A stretch of 61,030 nt of DNA from Acidobacteriota bacterium (GTDB lineage: Bacteria; Acidobacteriota; Terriglobia; Acidiferrales; UBA7541). The stretch spans positions 1-61,030 of the forward strand of contig QHYS01000018.1 in NCBI GenBank assembly GCA_003223325.1, given 5' to 3'. The notes below the pieces were generated by a model. The model had not been told where the DNA came from. It did no database searches and was given only the letters and a program-made list of their open reading frames with translations. Below are positions 27,439-38,979 of the stretch, one piece after another. A program made the translations under genes and the position numbers. How positions within the stretch are numbered: the first letter of the stretch is position 1; every line of letters starts with the position of its first letter.

Positions 27439-29697
27439 CTACGAGCCTTCTTTGTAGGCTTGGGCGAGGTACTTCTTGGCTTCGTCTTGAGCGCCGCCAG
27501 TGTCATCGTTGGTTTGTTGCGCTTTGCTGTACTCGTTGACGGCCCGCGCGCGATCGCCGGCGATATCGTAAACCTTGCCGAGATAAATGTGCGCCCATAC
27601 CTCGACCCATTTGAAGCTGGGATCAATATTGCCGTCGAGGGAGTCTCGAAAAGCGTTGGCCGCAGCTGAGTAATTTTTCTGATAAAAGAAGGCCTCGGCC
27701 ATGCGAAATTCCGCGAGCGCGTTGTCTTTTTGTTGATCGAGCGCCTGCTGGTACTGCTGGATAGCGTCGTAATAACGCCCCTGCTCCGCAAGAGCTTCGC
27801 CGCGAGCAATGATGGCGCGAACGCGAAGTTGCAGATTGGATTTCAGGATCGCGTTATGAGGATCGAGGGTGATGCCCCCTGGCTTGGGCCGGCCGAAAAC
27901 TTCGGTGGTAAAGCTGGAATCGGTGCCGCTAACTTCGATGGTCTTGAACTCGGGATTCCCTTCGGTTTGGACCTCAATCTCCACGGGCATGCGGAAAAAG
28001 TCGAGATTCTGTTTCACCCTGCCATCGAGGCGGAAGCCGGTCTTGGTTCGATACACGGTGTAGGTAATGTTGAATTCGGGAATGCCGGTGGAGTTGATCC
28101 ACTGCGCGAAAAACGACTGGACGTTGGCCGGTGCAGTCTGCTCCGACGCCGCGGGCTTGCTGCTGGAAGGTGCTGCATTTCCTAAAGCAAAGTTGGCAGG
28201 CTTCGCCGGAGCCTGTGCGACGTGCTCCTGCGCCATCTTTTGGAAATCGGCAAGCGAGGCTGCTTTGCCAGAAAACTGGTTGTAATAATCATGCAAGAGG
28301 GAAGAGAAAGTCGAATCGCCGATCTGCTCTCGAAGCATGTGAAACACCATGGCGCCTTTGTTCACAACCACGGAGGTGTAGTTTGGCGTGAATGGTGTTA
28401 GACGCCCAGCTTCGGCGATAGGCGCGCTATCGTCGTACATTAACGCGCCGATGGCAAAATCGTTTAGGGCCTTGTTCATCCCGTCGTGTCCGACGGTTTG
28501 CTCGACGTACAGCGCTTCGGAATAGCGCGCCAATCCGTCGGTCAGCCAGACGTCAGAGGGAGACGCAGCCATGACCTGATCTCCCCACCATTGGGCGGCC
28601 ACGAGATTGGCCAATTGCCGCGCGTTAGCCGCCGGCCCCCATTGGCGCTGGCTTACGAGCAGCAAGCCCGGAGCGGCATAAGCAGGCAGTGTGCCATCAG
28701 GAATCTGCGCGATTGCCAAATTAGGCTTGGGCAGCGGACCAAACTGATCGGAAAGGACGTTGACGATGCGCGCGACTGCCCCGCCGTATTCCTGCGCCGA
28801 ACTCGCGGCGCTGGGAGGCAGGTAAACGGAAATGTTCAAGCCTTCTGCTTGTATGGGGAAGAGCTGCAAGGAGCCGGCGACAAAAGTCCCTGCGGCTTCT
28901 GGGTGATCGACCCGAAAGGTGTACGTGATGCGCGGGCTCGGGCTCGGCGGCGTGGCCGAAGTAGGTGGCAGAGCGGCACCATCCAGAGTGCGGGCGAGCT
29001 CCCGAGGGACCTGACCGGCTGGATTTCGGTTACCGAGCATCGGTCTCGGTGCGGTGGGAGCTGCGCTTACAGGTGCAGGAGCTTCGCTAGCGCCCGTGCC
29101 GATCACGACGAAGCTTTGTGGCACCTCGATGTGGAAGGTGCCGGTGAAACGGTTCGATGGGTAGCCCGTGAGGGGGAACCAGCGGGCGGGCAACAAAAGA
29201 TAGGCGCCATCTTTTCCGATAGACGCCAGGCGAACGCCAGAGATGGGGCTGTTCTCCTCATTGGCCAGAACGCCGCTGTATTCAAACGTTAGTTTGATTC
29301 TTTGGCCGGCGGGGACAACATCGGGTAGGGAGACGACTACATCCACTCCGCTTTGACCACCGCGGTCAATTTGGAGGACTTTGCCGGAGGCGTCGCGCAC
29401 ATCGCTCAGGCTCAGGTTTGGGTGCAGCTCGCAGTCGACGACGCGGGAAGGCGTTTGCGCTTCGAATTCCACGATCGCGCGCGCCGTAAGCATTTGTTTC
29501 TCAGGAGCCAGAGAAGCGGAAACCTCGTAAGAGACGGCGCGAAGTCCTGTCTTCTGGCGCGCTTGTGCCGTTACTGTGGGCGGCCGCACCGGCGCCTCTA
29601 CTTGCCCGGACGCGGCCCAAGCCGCGACAAGCAGGCAAACAGAGAGGGCACTCAGGTAGCCGCGAAGATTGAATTGGAACGTCCGGTTTTCAGTCAT
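27439..29697 (-). CDS. M1 peptidase homologue without zinc site, with C-terminal TPR repeats
   Basis: A 752-residue exported protein. A signal peptide (residues 13-33) is followed by the N-terminal beta domain of M1 aminopeptidases, then the catalytic-like domain. There LVAAQWWGDQV (about 364-374) stands where active members have HExxHQWWG, so both histidines and the glutamate are lost. The downstream third ligand region WLTDGLARYSEA has Asp instead of the usual Glu. It should therefore not cleave peptides. The last 110 residues are TPR-like (ALAEQGRYYDAIQQYQQAL). Probably a periplasmic binding or scaffold protein. It lies downstream of lpxB on the same strand. Confidence 0.88.
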   Translation of the reverse strand: MTENRTFQFNLRGYLSALSVCLLVAAWAASGQVEAPVRPPTVTAQARQKTGLRAVSYEVSASLAPEKQMLTARAIVEFEAQTPSRVVDCELHPNLSLSDVRDASGKVLQIDRGGQSGVDVVVSLPDVVPAGQRIKLTFEYSGVLANEENSPISGVRLASIGKDGAYLLLPARWFPLTGYPSNRFTGTFHIEVPQSFVVIGTGASEAPAPVSAAPTAPRPMLGNRNPAGQVPRELARTLDGAALPPTSATPPSPSPRITYTFRVDHPEAAGTFVAGSLQLFPIQAEGLNISVYLPPSAASSAQEYGGAVARIVNVLSDQFGPLPKPNLAIAQIPDGTLPAYAAPGLLLVSQRQWGPAANARQLANLVAAQWWGDQVMAASPSDVWLTDGLARYSEALYVEQTVGHDGMNKALNDFAIGALMYDDSAPIAEAGRLTPFTPNYTSVVVNKGAMVFHMLREQIGDSTFSSLLHDYYNQFSGKAASLADFQKMAQEHVAQAPAKPANFALGNAAPSSSKPAASEQTAPANVQSFFAQWINSTGIPEFNITYTVYRTKTGFRLDGRVKQNLDFFRMPVEIEVQTEGNPEFKTIEVSGTDSSFTTEVFGRPKPGGITLDPHNAILKSNLQLRVRAIIARGEALAEQGRYYDAIQQYQQALDQQKDNALAEFRMAEAFFYQKNYSAAANAFRDSLDGNIDPSFKWVEVWAHIYLGKVYDIAGDRARAVNEYSKAQQTNDDTGGAQDEAKKYLAQAYKEGS

Positions 29698-29804: not shown

Positions 29805-30950
29805 CTACGTAACCGGCTGATTTCGGATCATTTCGGCAATGATATCGGCGGCGCGCTCGATGGCGCCGGGCGGGCCGAGCTTCTCCCGAACGCCGGCGAG
29901 CTCCCGCCGCATTGTTTCGCGAGCTTCCGCTGAAGCCAGGAGCCGTTCCGTCTCCCGCACGACGCGTTCAGTCGTGAAGGCATCCTGGATGAGCTCCGGG
30001 ACGATCTCTTTGCCAGCGAGCACGTTGACCATGGCGAAAAAGCGTGTATGCACCAGATGCCGAACGACCCATGCAGTGAAGGGCGCGACGCGATAGACCA
30101 CCACCATCGGAACACCGAGTAACGCGGCTTCGATGGTTGCCGTGCCACTCGAGACGATGGCCACCTGTGCGGCTCCAAGCAATTCGTATGTCGCGTTTTC
30201 CACTGTGGTTATGGCCGGCGCGAGCCCAGCCATATGCGCTTTCAGTTGTGCCTGCGTGAGTCCCGGCGCCGCCGCGAATACGAATTGCCGCTTAGTGGTC
30301 GAGTTCATCTGCGCGACAGCCGCCATTAACTGCGGCATATGATGAGCCAGCTCGCTAGGACGGCTACCTGGCAGGACGGCGACGATTGCAAGCATCGTAT
30401 CGAGTCCGTAGCGCGCGGCGAAGGTTTCGCGGTTTGCCGGTGCCCGTACGGCATCGACGAGCGGATGCCCGATCCAGTCCGTTTGCACGCCGGCCTTGCG
30501 ATAGAAATCCTCCTCGAAAGGGAAAATGCACAGGCCACGGACAAAACGGCGCTTTACCAGCCGGACGCGCCACGGCCTCCAGGCCCAAAACTGCGGACAA
30601 ACGAAATAGATGTTCCGTACATGCTTGCGGCGGAGAACACGAGAGAGGCGCAGGTGAAATGCAGGAAAGTCCGTCAAAATTGCAAGCCTCGGTCCGCGCC
30701 GCTCGATTTCCGAAATCAGACGTTTCCAGGCTCGACGTAGCGCCGGAAGTTTTCGCACGATCTCCACAACCCCAAGCACACCGACATCCGCAGCGTCGAC
30801 GACCGTATCGACCCCGGCTTCACGCATCCGGGGACCACCCATGCCAAACAAGTCGACCTCGGTTCGCCGACGGAGCGCCAAGGCCAGCCGCGCAGCATAC
30901 ATATCGCCGGAAGCCTCGCCGGCGGAGATCAACACCGGGATGCGAGTCAT
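29805..30950 (-). CDS. lpxB: Lipid-A-disaccharide synthase
   Basis: A 381-residue GT19 glycosyltransferase that joins UDP-2,3-diacylglucosamine and lipid X to the lipid A disaccharide on the inner face of the cytoplasmic membrane. Signatures: SAGEASGDMYAARLALAL (residues 9-26), FDFP-type TDFPAFHLRLSR, CPQFWAWRPWRVR, IGHPLVD and the late SSGTATIEAALLGVPMVVVYR. Length matches the E. coli enzyme (382). It lies 25 bases downstream of an ABC half-transporter gene, in the order transporter-transporter-lpxB, consistent with lipid A transport and synthesis. Confidence 0.96.
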   Translation of the reverse strand: MTRIPVLISAGEASGDMYAARLALALRRRTEVDLFGMGGPRMREAGVDTVVDAADVGVLGVVEIVRKLPALRRAWKRLISEIERRGPRLAILTDFPAFHLRLSRVLRRKHVRNIYFVCPQFWAWRPWRVRLVKRRFVRGLCIFPFEEDFYRKAGVQTDWIGHPLVDAVRAPANRETFAARYGLDTMLAIVAVLPGSRPSELAHHMPQLMAAVAQMNSTTKRQFVFAAAPGLTQAQLKAHMAGLAPAITTVENATYELLGAAQVAIVSSGTATIEAALLGVPMVVVYRVAPFTAWVVRHLVHTRFFAMVNVLAGKEIVPELIQDAFTTERVVRETERLLASAEARETMRRELAGVREKLGPPGAIERAADIIAEMIRNQPVT

Positions 30951-30975: not shown

Positions 30976-32847
30976 TTAATCATCGGCGGGAAGCGGAGCG
31001 CCCGCGGAACTGGCGGGAGCCACAGGAAGGCGGAGTTCCTGATCTTTGTACTGAAGCTGGTACAAGCGGTAGTAGATGCCTCTTCCGGCCAACAATTCCT
31101 GGTGCGTTCCCTGTTCGCGTAGACGGGACTTGTGGAAGACGAGAATTCGGTCGGCATGCTGGATGGTGCTCAATCGATGCGCAATGACGATAGCGGTGCG
31201 GCCGCTGAGCAGGCGGTCCAGAGCCTCGCGGATCATTAGCTCGGTGCGAGTGTCCACGCTGGAAGTGGCTTCGTCGAGGATCAGAAAACGCGGATTATGT
31301 GCCAACGCGCGCGCGAAACTCACCAATTGCCGTTGGCCGACGGAAAAAGTCGAGCCGCGCTCACTCACCATCGTTTCGAGGCCCTGGGGCAGGGAATCGA
31401 GGAATGGTCCCAAGCCGACTTCGCGAAGCGCAGATTCCGCCGCTTCGCGGCTGACGCTCTCGGTGCCCAAGCGAACGTTGGATTCGAGCGTGCCTGTGAA
31501 AAGAAAGGGATCTTGCAACACGATTCCGAACTGGCGCCGCAAGTCTTGCACACTGAGTTCGCGTATGTCCGTTCCGTCCAGGAGGATTTGGCCGCGCTGG
31601 ATATTGTAGAAGCGGAGCAGCAGCTGAATGGTGGTGGTTTTGCCCGCGCCGGTGTGCCCGACGATAGCCATGGTCTCGCCCGGGCGCACACGGAAGGAAA
31701 CGTCGCGAAGCACCCAATCGTCCTCTGTCGGATTGGAGCCTCCGTGATAGGCGAACCATACGTTATGGAATTCGATTTCGCCTCTCACGTCGGAAAGCGG
31801 AAGGCCGGCAGAGAGCATGGCCGGAGCCGGTTCGTCGAGCAACCTGAAAATGCGTTCGGATGCGGCCATGGCGGATTGCAGAATATTGAATTTTTCGCTG
31901 AGATCCTGAATCGGCTGGAAGAATCGTTGCGCGTATTGCATGAACGCGAACAACACGCCTACAGGAATGGCTCCGGCCAGCGATCGCAAGCCTCCGTACC
32001 AGAAGACGACGATAATTGCGACCACGCCGAGGAATTCGACTCCGGGATAAAAAAGCGCAAAGGCCAGAATGGCGTCTTTGTAAGCTTCCATGTGGATGCG
32101 ATTGAGTTCAGCGAATTGGGCGCGCGCCTTGCGCTCGCGGTTGAACAACTGGACCACGCTCATGCCGCTAATGTGTTCCTGCAAGAAGGCATTGATGCGT
32201 GCAATGGCGGTGCGAATGCGGCGGTTGGCGTCACGAACTTTGCCGCGAAAAATCCAGGTGCAGAGAAACAGGAGAGGGAGCACGGCGAAGGTAGCCAGCG
32301 CCAGTTTCCAGTTCATCCTCAGCATGACGAAAATGAAGAGAACCAAAAGGAAGGCGTCATTCACCATGGCCGCAATTCCTGTGGCGAAGAGGTCGTTCAG
32401 GGCGTCCACATCAGTGGTTACGCGGGTGACGAGACGGCCCACCGGACTGCGGTCATAGAAGCTGATCGGCAGGCGCTGCAGGTGCTCGAAAATTTCCTTG
32501 CGCAGGTCATACATAGTGTCCTGGCCGACTTTCTGCATGACCCGCACCTGGAAAAACATGAAAGCAAAGCCTAGAGCCAGGGTGGCCAGGTAGGCTTGTG
32601 AGATCCAGCCAAGGCCATTAACCGCCGCCTCTCGGGTAATTTGATGATGGAGAGAAGGAACGAAATAGCGGTCTACCGCGATCTCGAAGAGATAGGGGCC
32701 CAATGCGGCGAGCGGCGCCACAGGCAAGGTCAGCAGAGCGGCAAGGGCTACCCAGCCGCGGTACGGGCGCAAGTAGCGGAAGAGCCGCCTCGCCAGACGC
32801 GAGTCGTAAACCTTGCCTAGGGCTTCTTCTTCCCTGAAATCACTCAT
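30976..32847 (-). CDS. ABC half-transporter, MsbA-like (second of pair)
   Basis: A 623-residue fusion of a six-helix transmembrane domain (about residues 20-330) and an ATPase domain. Walker A GHTGAGKTT lies near 397-405, the Q-loop at VLQDPFLFTG, and the signature is SVGQRQ near 502. Serine at the second position with Val in place of the usual Gly (LSGGQ) makes a degenerate C-loop. Walker B is FLILDEATSSVD, and the switch His is in AHRLST. The partner 32844-34784 has a canonical LSGGQ, so the pair likely forms a heterodimer with one consensus and one weaker ATP site. Export of lipid A or a lipid-linked substrate is inferred from lpxB next door. Confidence 0.9.
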   Translation of the reverse strand: MSDFREEEALGKVYDSRLARRLFRYLRPYRGWVALAALLTLPVAPLAALGPYLFEIAVDRYFVPSLHHQITREAAVNGLGWISQAYLATLALGFAFMFFQVRVMQKVGQDTMYDLRKEIFEHLQRLPISFYDRSPVGRLVTRVTTDVDALNDLFATGIAAMVNDAFLLVLFIFVMLRMNWKLALATFAVLPLLFLCTWIFRGKVRDANRRIRTAIARINAFLQEHISGMSVVQLFNRERKARAQFAELNRIHMEAYKDAILAFALFYPGVEFLGVVAIIVVFWYGGLRSLAGAIPVGVLFAFMQYAQRFFQPIQDLSEKFNILQSAMAASERIFRLLDEPAPAMLSAGLPLSDVRGEIEFHNVWFAYHGGSNPTEDDWVLRDVSFRVRPGETMAIVGHTGAGKTTTIQLLLRFYNIQRGQILLDGTDIRELSVQDLRRQFGIVLQDPFLFTGTLESNVRLGTESVSREAAESALREVGLGPFLDSLPQGLETMVSERGSTFSVGQRQLVSFARALAHNPRFLILDEATSSVDTRTELMIREALDRLLSGRTAIVIAHRLSTIQHADRILVFHKSRLREQGTHQELLAGRGIYYRLYQLQYKDQELRLPVAPASSAGAPLPADD

Positions 32848-34784
32848 GCCCGCTCAAGCTCTTCTTCGAGCAATTGCTTTTGGTATAGGTCCTCATAATA
32901 GCCGTCTTGAGCCAGGAGCTCTTCGTGTGTACCGCGCTCCACGATGCGGCCATCGCGCAGCACAATAATCTGATCCGCATTGCGGACTGTGGAGACACGA
33001 TGGGAGATCAGCAGGGTGGTCCGCTGCTTCATCAATTCTTTGAGCCCCCCGAGGATACGCTCCTCGGTATCGGTGTCTACGCTAGAGAGAGCATCGTCGA
33101 GGATCAGGACACGCGGGTCGCGCGCCAAGGCCCGCGCCAGAGCGGTGCGCTGCTTTTGGCCGCCGGAAAGCGTGATTCCTCTTTCCCCGACCAAGGTGGC
33201 ATATCCCATCGGAAAGCCGGCGATTTCCGACGCTATACTGGCCGTTTCGGCCGCTTTGTAGACGGTTTCATCGGAGCAGTCTTCCGTTCCGAAGGCAATG
33301 TTCTCCCGAAGAGGTTCGCTGAACAGATACGTGTCTTGCGGCACAAACCCGATGGATCGGCGCAAGCTAGCGAGCGGCCATTCCTGAATTGACCGGCCGT
33401 CGATTAGCAAGTTGCCTCGAGGCGCTTCCCAGAGCCTGGCGACCAAGGCGGCTAATGTGCTCTTGCCGCTTCCGGTGGGGCCTACAATGGCCAGAGTCGA
33501 ACCGGCTGGGACGCGCAGGTTTATATCATGCAGCACAGGCGTGCCGGACGGCCTGCCATTTTCCCTGCCTGAGGCTACCTCGCGCGCCGTGGGATAGGTG
33601 AAATCGAGATGTCGAAATTCAATTTCGCCTCGCATTGGCGCTTCTTGTTCCTTGCTGTGGGCCGGTGCGGCGGAATCGTCGATGGAAGGCTTGGCGTCCA
33701 AAATGTAATTGAGCCGCCCCATGGAAGCGGCGCCTCGCTGAAAAATGTTCGTGACGAAACCGAGGGCGACGATGGGAAAAATCAATTGAATCATGTAGGC
33801 ATAAAAAGCAACGAATTCGCCGAGAGAGATCTGCTCGAAGATGACCTGCCGGCCTCCGAACCATAGCACCAGGACGAAGGACATGCCGATCAGAGCCGTC
33901 AGCGCGGGCATAAACAAGCTCCAAGTGACGATCAGCTTGAGATTGCGCGTCACGTACTCGCGATTGGGCGCATCAAATGCGCGCATCTCTGCGTCTTCCT
34001 GGGCGTAGGCTCGAATGACGCGCACGCCGGCCAGATTTTCCTGCGCTTTGGCGGAAAGCGTGGCGAGGGCGGCCTGAATGGTTTCGTACAGCGAGTGTAT
34101 GGTTCTGCCGAAATAGCGTACGGCCACGACCACAATGGGCACAGGTATGAGGACCCACAGGCTGAGGGTGGGCGAGAGCCGGAACATCAGCACCACCGCC
34201 AGCAGCATTGTTACCAGCGTGGTGGCGCTATACATGATTCCCGGGCCTAGAACCATGCGCACGGCGTTCAGATCGTTGGTGGCGCGCGACATCAGCTCGC
34301 CGGTGCGATTGCGCACGTAAAACTCCGGCTCCATAAGCAACAGCCGATCGAGCAGGTCGTTGCGAAGATCGAATTCAATGTCGCGGGAGAGGCCAATCAG
34401 AATCCAGCGCGTCCAGAAGGAGAAGACACCCTTGAGGGCGACGATGACAACCGCTGCAAGGCAGTAAATGATCAAGGTTCGGACGCTCGATGACGCATAG
34501 GCGGGGATCAGCAAATGCACGAGGCGTGGAGACACCTGACTCAGCCGCCCGAGCGGCTGAGCATTTCCGGAAAGACAGTCCATGATCACGCCAAAGGCCA
34601 GCGGTTGGAGCGTTCCGACAATGCCCATAGCCGCGAGAGTCAGCATTCCGATGGCGACTTGTCCTTTGGACCGTGCGATATAAGGAAGCAGCTTTTTGAG
34701 GTGCTTCCAACCGGGGATGGGTTTCGAGGCTGGGAGTTTCGGCGGCTCCGTCGCGAGTACTGTCGCACCCGGGGCGCCGCTCAT
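32844..34784 (-). CDS. ABC half-transporter, MsbA-like (first of pair)
   Basis: A 646-residue half-transporter: transmembrane domain from about residue 30 to 340, ATPase domain after 385. Walker A GPTGSGKST near 433-441, signature LSGGQKQR near 538, Walker B VLILDDALSSVD (Asp in place of the usual Glu after the first Asp, DD instead of DE), switch His in SHRVST. The Walker B Asp for Glu would impair hydrolysis in the site it contributes to. The ATG at 34784 follows CGGAGCTCAA; a 13-residue longer frame lacks a ribosome site. The stop overlaps the next start (ATGA). Confidence 0.9.
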   Translation of the reverse strand: MSGAPGATVLATEPPKLPASKPIPGWKHLKKLLPYIARSKGQVAIGMLTLAAMGIVGTLQPLAFGVIMDCLSGNAQPLGRLSQVSPRLVHLLIPAYASSSVRTLIIYCLAAVVIVALKGVFSFWTRWILIGLSRDIEFDLRNDLLDRLLLMEPEFYVRNRTGELMSRATNDLNAVRMVLGPGIMYSATTLVTMLLAVVLMFRLSPTLSLWVLIPVPIVVVAVRYFGRTIHSLYETIQAALATLSAKAQENLAGVRVIRAYAQEDAEMRAFDAPNREYVTRNLKLIVTWSLFMPALTALIGMSFVLVLWFGGRQVIFEQISLGEFVAFYAYMIQLIFPIVALGFVTNIFQRGAASMGRLNYILDAKPSIDDSAAPAHSKEQEAPMRGEIEFRHLDFTYPTAREVASGRENGRPSGTPVLHDINLRVPAGSTLAIVGPTGSGKSTLAALVARLWEAPRGNLLIDGRSIQEWPLASLRRSIGFVPQDTYLFSEPLRENIAFGTEDCSDETVYKAAETASIASEIAGFPMGYATLVGERGITLSGGQKQRTALARALARDPRVLILDDALSSVDTDTEERILGGLKELMKQRTTLLISHRVSTVRNADQIIVLRDGRIVERGTHEELLAQDGYYEDLYQKQLLEEELERA

Positions 34785-34879
34785 TTGAGCTCCGAGGCGG
34801 GAATGGCCCAGCGCCCGCAACAATTTCTATAACAGCCTAGAAGTCCGATTGCGGAGATCAAGAACACACCTCGAATTTG

Positions 34880-36225: not shown

Positions 36226-38979
36226 TCACTCGTCGGTTTTTCGTGGCGACGGAGGAAGAGAATCGACGTCCAGCAGCCCACGGCGAAGAGCGTTGCCTAC
36301 GCCGGAGAAAATTTCCGTAACGGCAGCGCGGAGGCGCTCCTCGGCCGCTTTGGTGAGTGCTTGAAGATGCTGTTCGGATTGCTGGCTGAGCTTCGAGACG
36401 GTGGTTAGCAGCCAGGAGTTCGAGGCGGCCTCAAGTCTTCGCTTGTAATCCTCAATGGCCTGGTTGTTGAAGCCTGCTATGCTCTCGGCTAGTTTATGTT
36501 GCTGTGCCTCAGATTCCAGGTCCAGTTGTTCCCGGGCAGATGCTAGTTGCGTGAGCAATTCCTTCCTGGCACTGCCCAGCTCCTCCTGTGCCTGCAGTTT
36601 CAGAGCGGCCCGGAACTCCGCAGAGAGTTGCAGGGAACCGGCTTCTGAGATTGTGCGCGCTTCGGCGACCTGCCTTTCGAATTGCATTTTGATCTGACCG
36701 GAAAGGCTGGTGGCCTGCGCGCGAAAGTCCGCCAAAGCCGCTTCCGTATCTTCCCGAGCTTGTTGCACGATGGAGCCTGCAGAAGCTGCGGCCATCTCCT
36801 CTGCTTGTTTACGCAACCGTTCCAGGCTTTCTCGAGCCGCCTCTTCCACCTGTCCCTGAGTATGTTCTACATAGCTGCGGCTGTAATGATCGAGCTCAGC
36901 GCCAAAAATACCCGACATTTCGCGCGCTTTTTCTTTGAGGGCAGTAAGGGCGTTTTCCATACCCTTGTCGATTGCCGCCTGCATTTGCGTGTGCACTTTC
37001 TTTTCGTACCATTCCGCGGTTTTGAACAACGATTCGAATGCGTGATGGGTTGTGTCGGCAGCCTTGGCATCGATTTCGGAAGTCCACTTTTCAACTGCGG
37101 CGCGGCCCGATTCGTGAAAGTCACGAGTAAGGGTGCTAACCAGGTCTTTCACCCGATCGCCGGCCGACTGGATAGCAAGCTCCGAAGCTCTCGTCAGGCT
37201 TTCCTGGCGGCTACGCAAGGCTTCTTCGGCCGAGCCAATTGTGTTTTCCAGGCGTGCAGCCATTTCCGCGGCACTCTCGACCCTGTCTTTCAGTTCGGCC
37301 TTGATCTGAGCCGCGAGCCGCGTCACGGTCTGCTGGCCCGTGGCTTCCAGGGCAGGCTGCAGGCGTTCCGCCCAGGCGATGATGGCACCCTCGGCGCGCC
37401 GTGCCATCTCCTGGCTTTGCGCTTCGAGCAAGGCGCTGGCACGCTGCTCGAGCGCTTGCTCCACGGCCCCGGCAACTCCATGGAGCTTAGCCGTTTGATT
37501 GTCGATTTGATTGTGGATGGATTGCAAACTCCGCACGGATTCCTGAGCGCGCTCGCTTTCCTGATCCAGCGACGCCCGCAAGAGATTGAGCCTGACCTCA
37601 GAATCATTGGTTGCAGCCTCGAAGGTCTTGTTCATCTCGGCTATTCGCAGAGCGAGCTCTCGCTCCACGTGTTCTCCGGCAGATTGCGCATGGCGCGCCA
37701 GTCGTTCCACAAACTCTTGCTTTGCGGATTCGGCCGACCTTCCGATCTGCTGATGCCAGCGATCGACCGCGCCGGACAGGTCCGCCTCGACTCGCGTTTT
37801 CCAATCGGATTGTGCTGAGATAAAAGCCGAGGCAGCCTGATCCCTCAAATCACGTGACGCGCTTTCAATCTCGGAGAGGCTGCGGTTTGCCTGTTCGATT
37901 TGAGCGCGAACGTGCTGTTCTATTTCCTGAAGTTCCGGAATGGTAGCTTGCGGGCCGTGCGTCTCAACGCTGGGGCTCTCAGGTGGGATTGGCGCCCGCA
38001 AATCGGCAGCCTGCTTTTGCAGTTGCTCCAAGCTTTCGCGGACCCGTGTTTCGAGCTGCTTCTCGAAGGTCGCGCTCCGTTCCTTTTCGAGTTCCTCCAA
38101 CCGAGATGTCAACTGCTGAGCCGAGCGTGCGACGCTTTCCGCCATGCTGAGGTTACATTCCTGGAGGAAGGCGTCCACCTGAAGTTGCTTAACTTGCTGA
38201 AAGGCCTTTTCGGCAGCCGGGCCGGCGGCCGCTTCGAGAGATTTTTCCGCGGCGCCCTTCAGTTGGAGTTCCAGCGAGGCAATGAGGGGACGGGCCTCGA
38301 GAGAGACGGCTTCAGCAGCGCTCTGACGGAGAGCCGCTTGCACTTCTTGTTTGGCCTCTTCGAGCATCTGCGCTATTTCAGGGGCTGCGGACGATTCGAT
38401 CAGGGGCGCCTGCTGAACTGAGGGCACCAGCGGCAGTGTGCGCACATTGCCCTCTGCAGGCGCTACGGGCGGCGGCGTCCGAGGGGGCTGAGCCGGCGCG
38501 GGAGGGGATATTGTGGTCACAGGCGACGACGGCACAGGTGCGAGGCCTTCTGGAACAGGTGCGAGGCCTTCTGGAAAAGGAAACCAGTCTGAAGGTGGGA
38601 AAGCAATACCCCAGAAATTGCCGGTCACTTCGAGTTCCACGCCGACCTGAAATAACTCGCGCACCGTCCGGGGCCGCTGGATCCACATCACGCGGGCGCG
38701 CACGTTTCGCACGGGATGTCCCGGTTCCGGATGAGGGACTTCCAGCGTGACCCACATGTTTTTGAGAACGTAATGCTTAGACTGATAGCGGCAACCGTGG
38801 CAATTAATGATCAGTGTGGAAGTGCGCTCCTGAAAAGGGCGCCCCAGCGCATCAACTCCGACCACCGTAAGCGGAACCGCCTGGACGATACGGGTACTGC
38901 GGCGTTTCGATACATCCGGTTCGTTCGTTGGCACAGACTCCGGCACGCGTCTCTCCAGAGCGAAGAACAAGCGTATCAC
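36226..38979 (-). CDS. Large PilZ-like/coiled-coil protein
   Basis: A 917-residue protein. Residues about 20-130 resemble a PilZ-type beta-barrel: a basic KRRSTRIVQAVPLTV start, strands with TLIINCHGCRYQSKHYVL, and VRARVMWIQRPRTV. A Pro-rich linker spans about 135-185 and contains a repeated EGLAPVP unit. The remaining 700 residues are almost unbroken coiled coil rich in Ala, Gln and Glu, with 11/33-residue periodicity like apolipoprotein or methyl-accepting filament-like proteins (EKSLEAAAGPAAEKAFQQV). The RxxxR plus (D/N)xSxxG motif that binds c-di-GMP is not clear: NCHGCR stands where D-x-S-x-x-G is expected. No membrane helix is present. The start is GTG; a later one is possible. Confidence 0.75.
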   Translation of the reverse strand: MIRLFFALERRVPESVPTNEPDVSKRRSTRIVQAVPLTVVGVDALGRPFQERTSTLIINCHGCRYQSKHYVLKNMWVTLEVPHPEPGHPVRNVRARVMWIQRPRTVRELFQVGVELEVTGNFWGIAFPPSDWFPFPEGLAPVPEGLAPVPSSPVTTISPPAPAQPPRTPPPVAPAEGNVRTLPLVPSVQQAPLIESSAAPEIAQMLEEAKQEVQAALRQSAAEAVSLEARPLIASLELQLKGAAEKSLEAAAGPAAEKAFQQVKQLQVDAFLQECNLSMAESVARSAQQLTSRLEELEKERSATFEKQLETRVRESLEQLQKQAADLRAPIPPESPSVETHGPQATIPELQEIEQHVRAQIEQANRSLSEIESASRDLRDQAASAFISAQSDWKTRVEADLSGAVDRWHQQIGRSAESAKQEFVERLARHAQSAGEHVERELALRIAEMNKTFEAATNDSEVRLNLLRASLDQESERAQESVRSLQSIHNQIDNQTAKLHGVAGAVEQALEQRASALLEAQSQEMARRAEGAIIAWAERLQPALEATGQQTVTRLAAQIKAELKDRVESAAEMAARLENTIGSAEEALRSRQESLTRASELAIQSAGDRVKDLVSTLTRDFHESGRAAVEKWTSEIDAKAADTTHHAFESLFKTAEWYEKKVHTQMQAAIDKGMENALTALKEKAREMSGIFGAELDHYSRSYVEHTQGQVEEAARESLERLRKQAEEMAAASAGSIVQQAREDTEAALADFRAQATSLSGQIKMQFERQVAEARTISEAGSLQLSAEFRAALKLQAQEELGSARKELLTQLASAREQLDLESEAQQHKLAESIAGFNNQAIEDYKRRLEAASNSWLLTTVSKLSQQSEQHLQALTKAAEERLRAAVTEIFSGVGNALRRGLLDVDSLPPSPRKTDE

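Follow-up and report, generated by a model that had tools for sequence, protein, structure and literature searches.

Members of peptidase family M1, among them LTA4 hydrolase, ERAP1, PepN and the two-domain M1 enzyme of Deinococcus, have in common an N-terminal domain, a gluzincin domain, a β-sandwich and a helix bearing the QWWG motif. An M1-like fold in a non-enzymatic role is also known from the eukaryotic transcription factor TAF2. In its table of pseudopeptidases, a 2024 review gives yeast Tma108 for family M1, and Tma108 is proposed to bind nascent chains with its substrate pocket (PMC11266112). The protein described here resembles Tma108 in its M1 fold and in having the substrate pocket as a proposed binding site. 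However, Tma108, a partner of the ribosome, still has HExxH and the distal Glu, and shared membership of family M1 is the only relation considered between the two.

A likeness of another kind is found in BepA of Escherichia coli, a periplasmic protein tied to LPS biogenesis in which a metallopeptidase domain is followed by a C-terminal TPR. BepA either helps or degrades LptD, and the protease-dead variant E137Q showed weakened LptD conversion (PMC8423444). BepA, however, belongs to family M48 rather than M1, and it retains both zinc and protease function.

In the accessible part of a survey of lipid A genes, Acidobacteria are named once, in a figure key (PMC3087551). A few literature searches, conducted partly at the level of titles and abstracts, returned no description of bacterial M1 proteins that lack zinc ligands and are linked to lpxB, and a similarly small number returned no paper on such an envelope assembly factor in Acidobacteriota. 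M1 pseudopeptidases are already known, whereas a zinc-less, lpxB-linked bacterial M1 family is apparently undescribed in the literature searched.

Domain organisation and predicted fold

The window is the whole 61,030-nucleotide stretch of acidobacterial DNA that was analysed. One of its genes encodes an M1-fold protein with a TPR tail (M1-TPR), the features of which are collected in Table 1. In comparison with family M1 enzymes, this protein is without the zinc ligands, the catalytic Glu and Tyr and the GAMEN motif, and it seems to carry a TPR where the larger of those enzymes have helical domain IV.

Table 1. Features of the M1-TPR gene and of the genes upstream of it, in window positions.
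Feature	Positions	Strand	Basis
M1-fold protein of 752 aa without zinc ligands, with a TPR tail; ATG start	27439..29697	-	ORF call, Pfam, structure model
Residues 1–32, hydrophobic N-terminus, putative type I signal peptide	29602..29697	-	Translation by eye; model helix 15–26
Residues 45–212, M1 N-terminal β domain	29062..29565	-	Fold match; limits set by hand
Residues 256–500, gluzincin (thermolysin-like) domain	28198..28932	-	PF01433 at 366–493, fold match; limits set by hand
Residues 339–344, AYAAPG at the place of the GAMEN motif	28666..28683	-	Alignment
Residues 364–371, NLVAAQWW at the place of HExxHQWW	28585..28608	-	Alignment
Residues 387–392, DGLARY at the place of EGxATY	28522..28539	-	Alignment; within model helix 380–402
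Residue 445, Val at the place of the catalytic Tyr	28363..28365	-	Alignment
Residues 526–622, M1 domain III-type β-sandwich, strongly conserved	27832..28122	-	Conservation, model; limits set by hand
Residues 623–745, TPR helices, most conserved part	27463..27831	-	Pfam, conservation, dN/dS, model; limits set by hand
lpxB, lipid-A-disaccharide synthase	29805..30950	-	TIGR00215 above cut-off, PF02684
MsbA-like ABC exporter	30976..32847	-	Below MsbA equivalog cut-off
Second MsbA-like ABC exporter	32844..34823	-	Below MsbA equivalog cut-off

A Pfam scan of the protein matched Peptidase_M1 (E 9.7e-14; 51.9 bits against a gathering score of 27.7) and, at residues 628–659, TPR_2; no M48 match was obtained at E up to 0.01. 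On the strength of a PF01433 score above the gathering score and of its predicted M1 fold, the protein is placed in peptidase family M1 by descent. The M1 fold, the sandwich and the TPR occur in one chain with lpxB upstream. Export is read from the N-terminus only, and no lipobox was seen by eye in residues 1–32.

The AlphaFold2 model, which was built with 48 natural sequences, has a mean pLDDT of 88.3 and a pTM of 0.85. Structural comparison with VIA-align matched the model to LTA4 hydrolase (3fui; Z 30.7 over 423 residues) and to the Deinococcus two-domain M1 enzyme (6koy; Z 29.5 over 405 residues). From the confidence of the model and these matches, the M1 fold is therefore predicted to be intact. 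Because alignments to larger M1 enzymes extend into the TPR, up to residues 742–748 at an rmsd of 5–7, the TPR seems to stand in for the helical domain IV of those enzymes.

Dismantling of the active site

Site positions were read from an alignment of the protein with 16 generic M1 proteins. HExxH is read as NLVAA, with Asn364 at the first His, Leu365 at the catalytic Glu and Ala368 at the second His; with Asp387 at the distal Glu, all four HExxH..E positions are substituted. The column of the catalytic Tyr holds Val445, and that of the GAMEN Glu holds Ala341. The protein thus has none of the HExxH-x18-E zinc site, the GAMEN Glu and the catalytic Tyr that mark an active M1 aminopeptidase. Still present are QWWG (residues 369–372), Gly388 and Tyr392.

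A preliminary description of this locus, made from the window's sequence, had proposed an M1 protein with a TPR tail in which every zinc ligand is lost, and the ORF call, the alignment and Pfam agree on this point. Its readings of NLVAAQWWG, with QWWG kept, and of DGLARY hold against the generic M1 proteins, and its suggestion of an intact but non-catalytic fold gains support from low dN/dS, the AlphaFold2 model and the match to M1 structures. Two further losses, those of the catalytic Tyr and the GAMEN motif, had not been mentioned. Taken as a whole, the protein is very probably non-catalytic, and the periplasmic scaffold role that had been put forward for it is plausible.

Loss of the GAMEN Glu is shared across the sampled family: its column is without Glu in all 177 members counted, as against Glu in 13 of the 16 generic proteins. 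In members of Terriglobales type, the alignment shows a Glu three columns further on (AWAPE), which may have taken on a shifted role. Within the window's order, the former His positions lie at the 87th and 96th entropy percentiles of the domain and are thus among its most variable, and the pocket-helix residues Ala367, Gln369, Trp370, Gly388 and Tyr392 are nearly fixed.

Asp or Asn at position 387 is combined with Arg391 in 77 of the 162 zinc-less members, and Arg391 occurs in none of the 15 members that keep the zinc site. The pair is found within three clades, namely the window's order, some members of which lack it, and two that are named, in part from record titles, as of Bryobacterales and Terriglobales type; positions 387 and 391 vary between zinc-less clades. 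Fitch parsimony gives 8 changes of the pair on the family tree, a count that leaves the number of its origins unsure. As a spacing of four residues puts Asp387 and Arg391 one turn from each other on the same model helix, a salt bridge between them in the old metal site is likely, and substitutions of this sort could take up the space left by the metal. A further set of catalytic residues in the pocket was also considered and finds weak support, from this pair only.

Family distribution and repeated loss of the zinc site

When the protein was used as query, all 61 relatives yielded a match, the weakest ones (G010 and G040) being to other M1 proteins. In a profile search, all 299 genomes of the class matched, 287 of them with a best E below 1e-100; the M1-TPR gene is nearly always carried in this class of Acidobacteriota. 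Among the 12 genomes without such a match, eight have assemblies that are also without lpxB, as would be expected if a contig were missing, and in G099 and G247 lpxB stands at a contig end with its downstream side cut away. G172 and G190 (loci L274 and L269) are essentially complete and keep lpxB, preceded by an ABC exporter frame in which the exporter is seen in part, with no family member behind it. The M1-TPR gene is therefore not essential to every LPS producer, and these two genomes are natural deletions that lend themselves to a comparison of outer-membrane traits.

In a phylum sample of 297 genomes, lpxB was found in 272, too many for its co-occurrence with the family to be informative. 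Full-length relatives, among the matches listed, are confined to the class of the window and to another group of families. The latter includes relatives of records titled gp4 (L116, L117; class Blastocatellia). Matches of intermediate strength were obtained in G357, G398, G555 and others, and the remaining rows of the phylum, among the matches listed, match mainly over the M1 part.

The 177 distinct members were counted after exclusion of fragments scoring under 400 or falling short of profile position 600 (including L059–L061, L063–L066 and L260), of five members truncated at the N-terminus (L062, L067, L112, L113 and L118), of L259, which carries an insertion, and of duplicates identical in their middle 300 residues. 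One of the excluded members, L113, has HExxH and Glu intact. About two dozen members of family f6 were added once variation had been seen there, and the sampling is uneven to that extent. Rows assigned to the class include named records placed by similarity. One of these, L109, lies on a contig titled Verrucomicrobia and has an lpxB and M1-TPR pair of Terriglobales type, by mislabelling of the bin or by horizontal transfer.

All four HExxH..E positions are kept in 15 of the 177 members, a proportion that overstates the frequency of the zinc site because f6 was sampled on purpose; three are kept in 6, two in 12, one in 80 and none in 64. The 15 keepers fall in three families of the class (f6, f10 and f12) and may, from their motifs, still be enzymes. 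Only two of them, L182 and L184, combine the zinc site with the catalytic Tyr. Loss across the whole family was considered and is rejected by these 15 members. Because the same class holds members with an intact HExxH and Glu, the family is read from its sequences as having begun with a zinc site, which was then lost several times.

The preliminary description had taken intact homologues in the same clade as the mark of a recent loss. None was found among the 42 sampled members of the window's order (39 by handle, and 3 named records assigned to it on similarity), and the loss in this order is accordingly judged not to be recent and zinc loss to be a property of the clade; intact homologues do occur in the wider family, within the same class. 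Whether homologues share the window's substitutions has a similarly divided answer: the loss itself is common to all 42 members of the order, but the replacing residues differ outside the window's genus.

A tree was obtained by a quick LG+G4 search on 109 thinned members and 6 outgroup rows, with the motif columns left out; 28 of its 112 forks have support under 80. The window's order forms one clade of 21 thinned rows. If the full site was never regained, 12 losses are needed on this tree, and unordered parsimony, in which regain is allowed, counts 6 changes of zinc state. Near-tip losses separate the well supported sisters L047 and L055, L041 and L049, and L058 and L051. One orthologous protein, mostly beside one gene, thus provides a graded series in which the zinc site is intact, partly lost or fully lost, and which makes the conversion of an enzyme into a scaffold directly testable.

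Selection on the M1-TPR gene

Values of dN/dS were calculated by the Nei–Gojobori method for the window's gene against two near relatives in the genus. They are lowest in the TPR (0.017–0.027), about 0.07 in the sandwich and 0.04–0.13 in the M1 catalytic domain, with 0.03–0.05 for region 355–400; the linker 501–525 is far looser (0.54–0.57). Mean pairwise identity in the class, over 74 thinned rows, is 0.56 for the TPR, 0.52 for the sandwich and 0.30–0.43 for the catalytic parts. These substitution patterns indicate strong purifying selection on the gene, tightest in the β-sandwich and TPR.

Genomic linkage to lpxB

Four genes are transcribed in a row from the minus strand, first two for MsbA-like ABC exporters, then lpxB and finally M1-TPR, with 107 nt between the lpxB stop and the M1-TPR start codon. 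This arrangement had already been noted for the window, and its lpxB part extends well beyond it: of the 130 class members that could be tested, 125 have lpxB upstream in the same orientation (6 more have too little upstream sequence). Genes were scored as adjacent at a distance of at most 1,600 nt, measured to where the profile begins, and L080 and L212, which have intervening sequence, count as linked; in L212 an opposite-strand gene (1100–2309) separates the M1-TPR gene from lpxB. One of the five unlinked class members, L219, is related to L212 and has a gene similar to the L212 insert filling the upstream stretch, so lpxB may lie just beyond it, and a gene has probably been inserted before lpxB here as in L212.

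Outside the class, lpxB is linked in 19 of 40 testable members and unlinked in 21 (1 more is too short). Of these unlinked members, 19 have a motif type in common, in which the site begins with Arg-Glu and its final position is Gln or His. Within the class, two of the five unlinked members are L182 and L184, the two with both zinc site and catalytic Tyr, and their lpxB sits on another contig. This pattern of active-site retention without an adjacent lpxB is suggestive; both members belong to f6 and to the same five-row fork, and they may represent a single event.

In a comparison of 52 loci, some of them cut by contig ends, lpxB was found in 41, an ABC exporter in 26 and a methyltransferase in 14, and no other conserved neighbour came near the frequency of lpxB. 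In the window, the gene downstream of M1-TPR is a convergent one for a SAM-dependent methyltransferase (Pfam). The run of genes to which M1-TPR belongs is headed by an ORF of 917 aa (36226–38979, minus strand), which is common to 4 of the 52 loci and for which neither Pfam nor NCBIfam gave a family at E 0.01. Likewise, the genes that open this run match no Pfam family at E 0.01, with weak matches below cut-off at E 0.1, and a scan for promoters and terminators gave results at chance level.

Proposed function and alternatives

M1-TPR is proposed, with a probability of roughly 0.5, to be exported and to bind polypeptides without catalysis during the assembly of LPS or the outer membrane; it would work in the manner of BepA while standing outside its family. 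The protein would be exported to the periplasm, where its TPR would dock it to a partner in the outer-membrane or LPS assembly machinery and its old substrate cleft would hold, but not cleave, an unfolded polypeptide, either an outer-membrane protein (LptD, for instance) or some other client. It would then serve as a chaperone or adaptor, with the lpxB operon keeping its dose in step with lipid A synthesis. The active site would have been lost gradually, from N-terminus recognition (GAMEN) to the catalytic Tyr in most lines and then, repeatedly, to the zinc ligands, proposedly because binding was the function under selection. LptD is present in the window's genome. Four of the genome's M48 proteins were scanned (three shorter M48 frames were left out) and none has a Pfam TPR, so no BepA-type protein is among those four.

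The two parts of this proposal differ in strength. A role in LPS or the outer membrane is favoured at somewhat better than even odds and, if true, would make the protein a factor for envelope assembly in one of the major soil phyla; the BepA-like holding of clients is tentative, with the odds leaning against it. It is more doubtful still that a secreted M1 peptidase became, on some 12 separate occasions within two major acidobacterial groups, a zinc-free LPS or outer-membrane chaperone, with the BepA plan reinvented and the Asp/Asn–Arg pair serving as a structural plug in three clades.

LpxB works in the cytoplasm, so any link between it and an exported protein must be indirect. This favours a different account, in which M1-TPR is a non-catalytic periplasmic scaffold or adaptor unrelated to LPS or outer-membrane assembly and its linkage to lpxB reflects co-transcription of unrelated house-keeping genes. 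The 21 unlinked members outside the class and the two genomes with lpxB and no M1-TPR gene point the same way. However, lpxB stays adjacent throughout nearly all testable class members while other neighbours vary, and close to half of the testable members outside the class are linked as well; an unrelated scaffold is thus considered unlikely, if still a serious rival. Conversion to another chemistry in a re-built pocket is improbable. The conservation of pocket-helix residues in the window's order and the restriction of Arg391 to zinc-less members would suit such an enzyme, but the former His positions are highly variable, positions 387 and 391 differ between zinc-less clades, and the pair could simply fill the lost metal site.

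Pseudopeptidases can regulate active relatives (PMC11266112), and at least one M1 paralogue encoded in the genome looks intact (contig C297, with HELTH and a later EGF); M1-TPR might pair with it as a decoy or regulator. This is slightly less probable again than a re-built enzyme, given that selection peaks in the TPR rather than in the M1 domain and that the gene is linked to lpxB rather than to another peptidase. Recent decay of the gene, or a sequencing artefact, recalls the near-tip losses seen elsewhere in the family but has next to no probability for the window: the frame is open over its full length, dN/dS is low and the site is missing from every sampled member of the order, and recent decay was rejected on the latter two counts. 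The reading of M1-TPR as a non-catalytic binding factor in envelope assembly is the one favoured.

Other M1 genes in the genome

A second degenerate M1 protein, of 480 aa, is encoded at 559–2001 of locus L005 (contig C209). It scores 23.5 bits, below the Pfam cut-off, has DYELARTWFGW at the expected place of HExxH and shows no TPR by Pfam. At 121–2300 of locus L004 (contig C60), an M1 gene with HEVAHQWWG is spread over two frames, as the result of a frameshift or of an assembly error.
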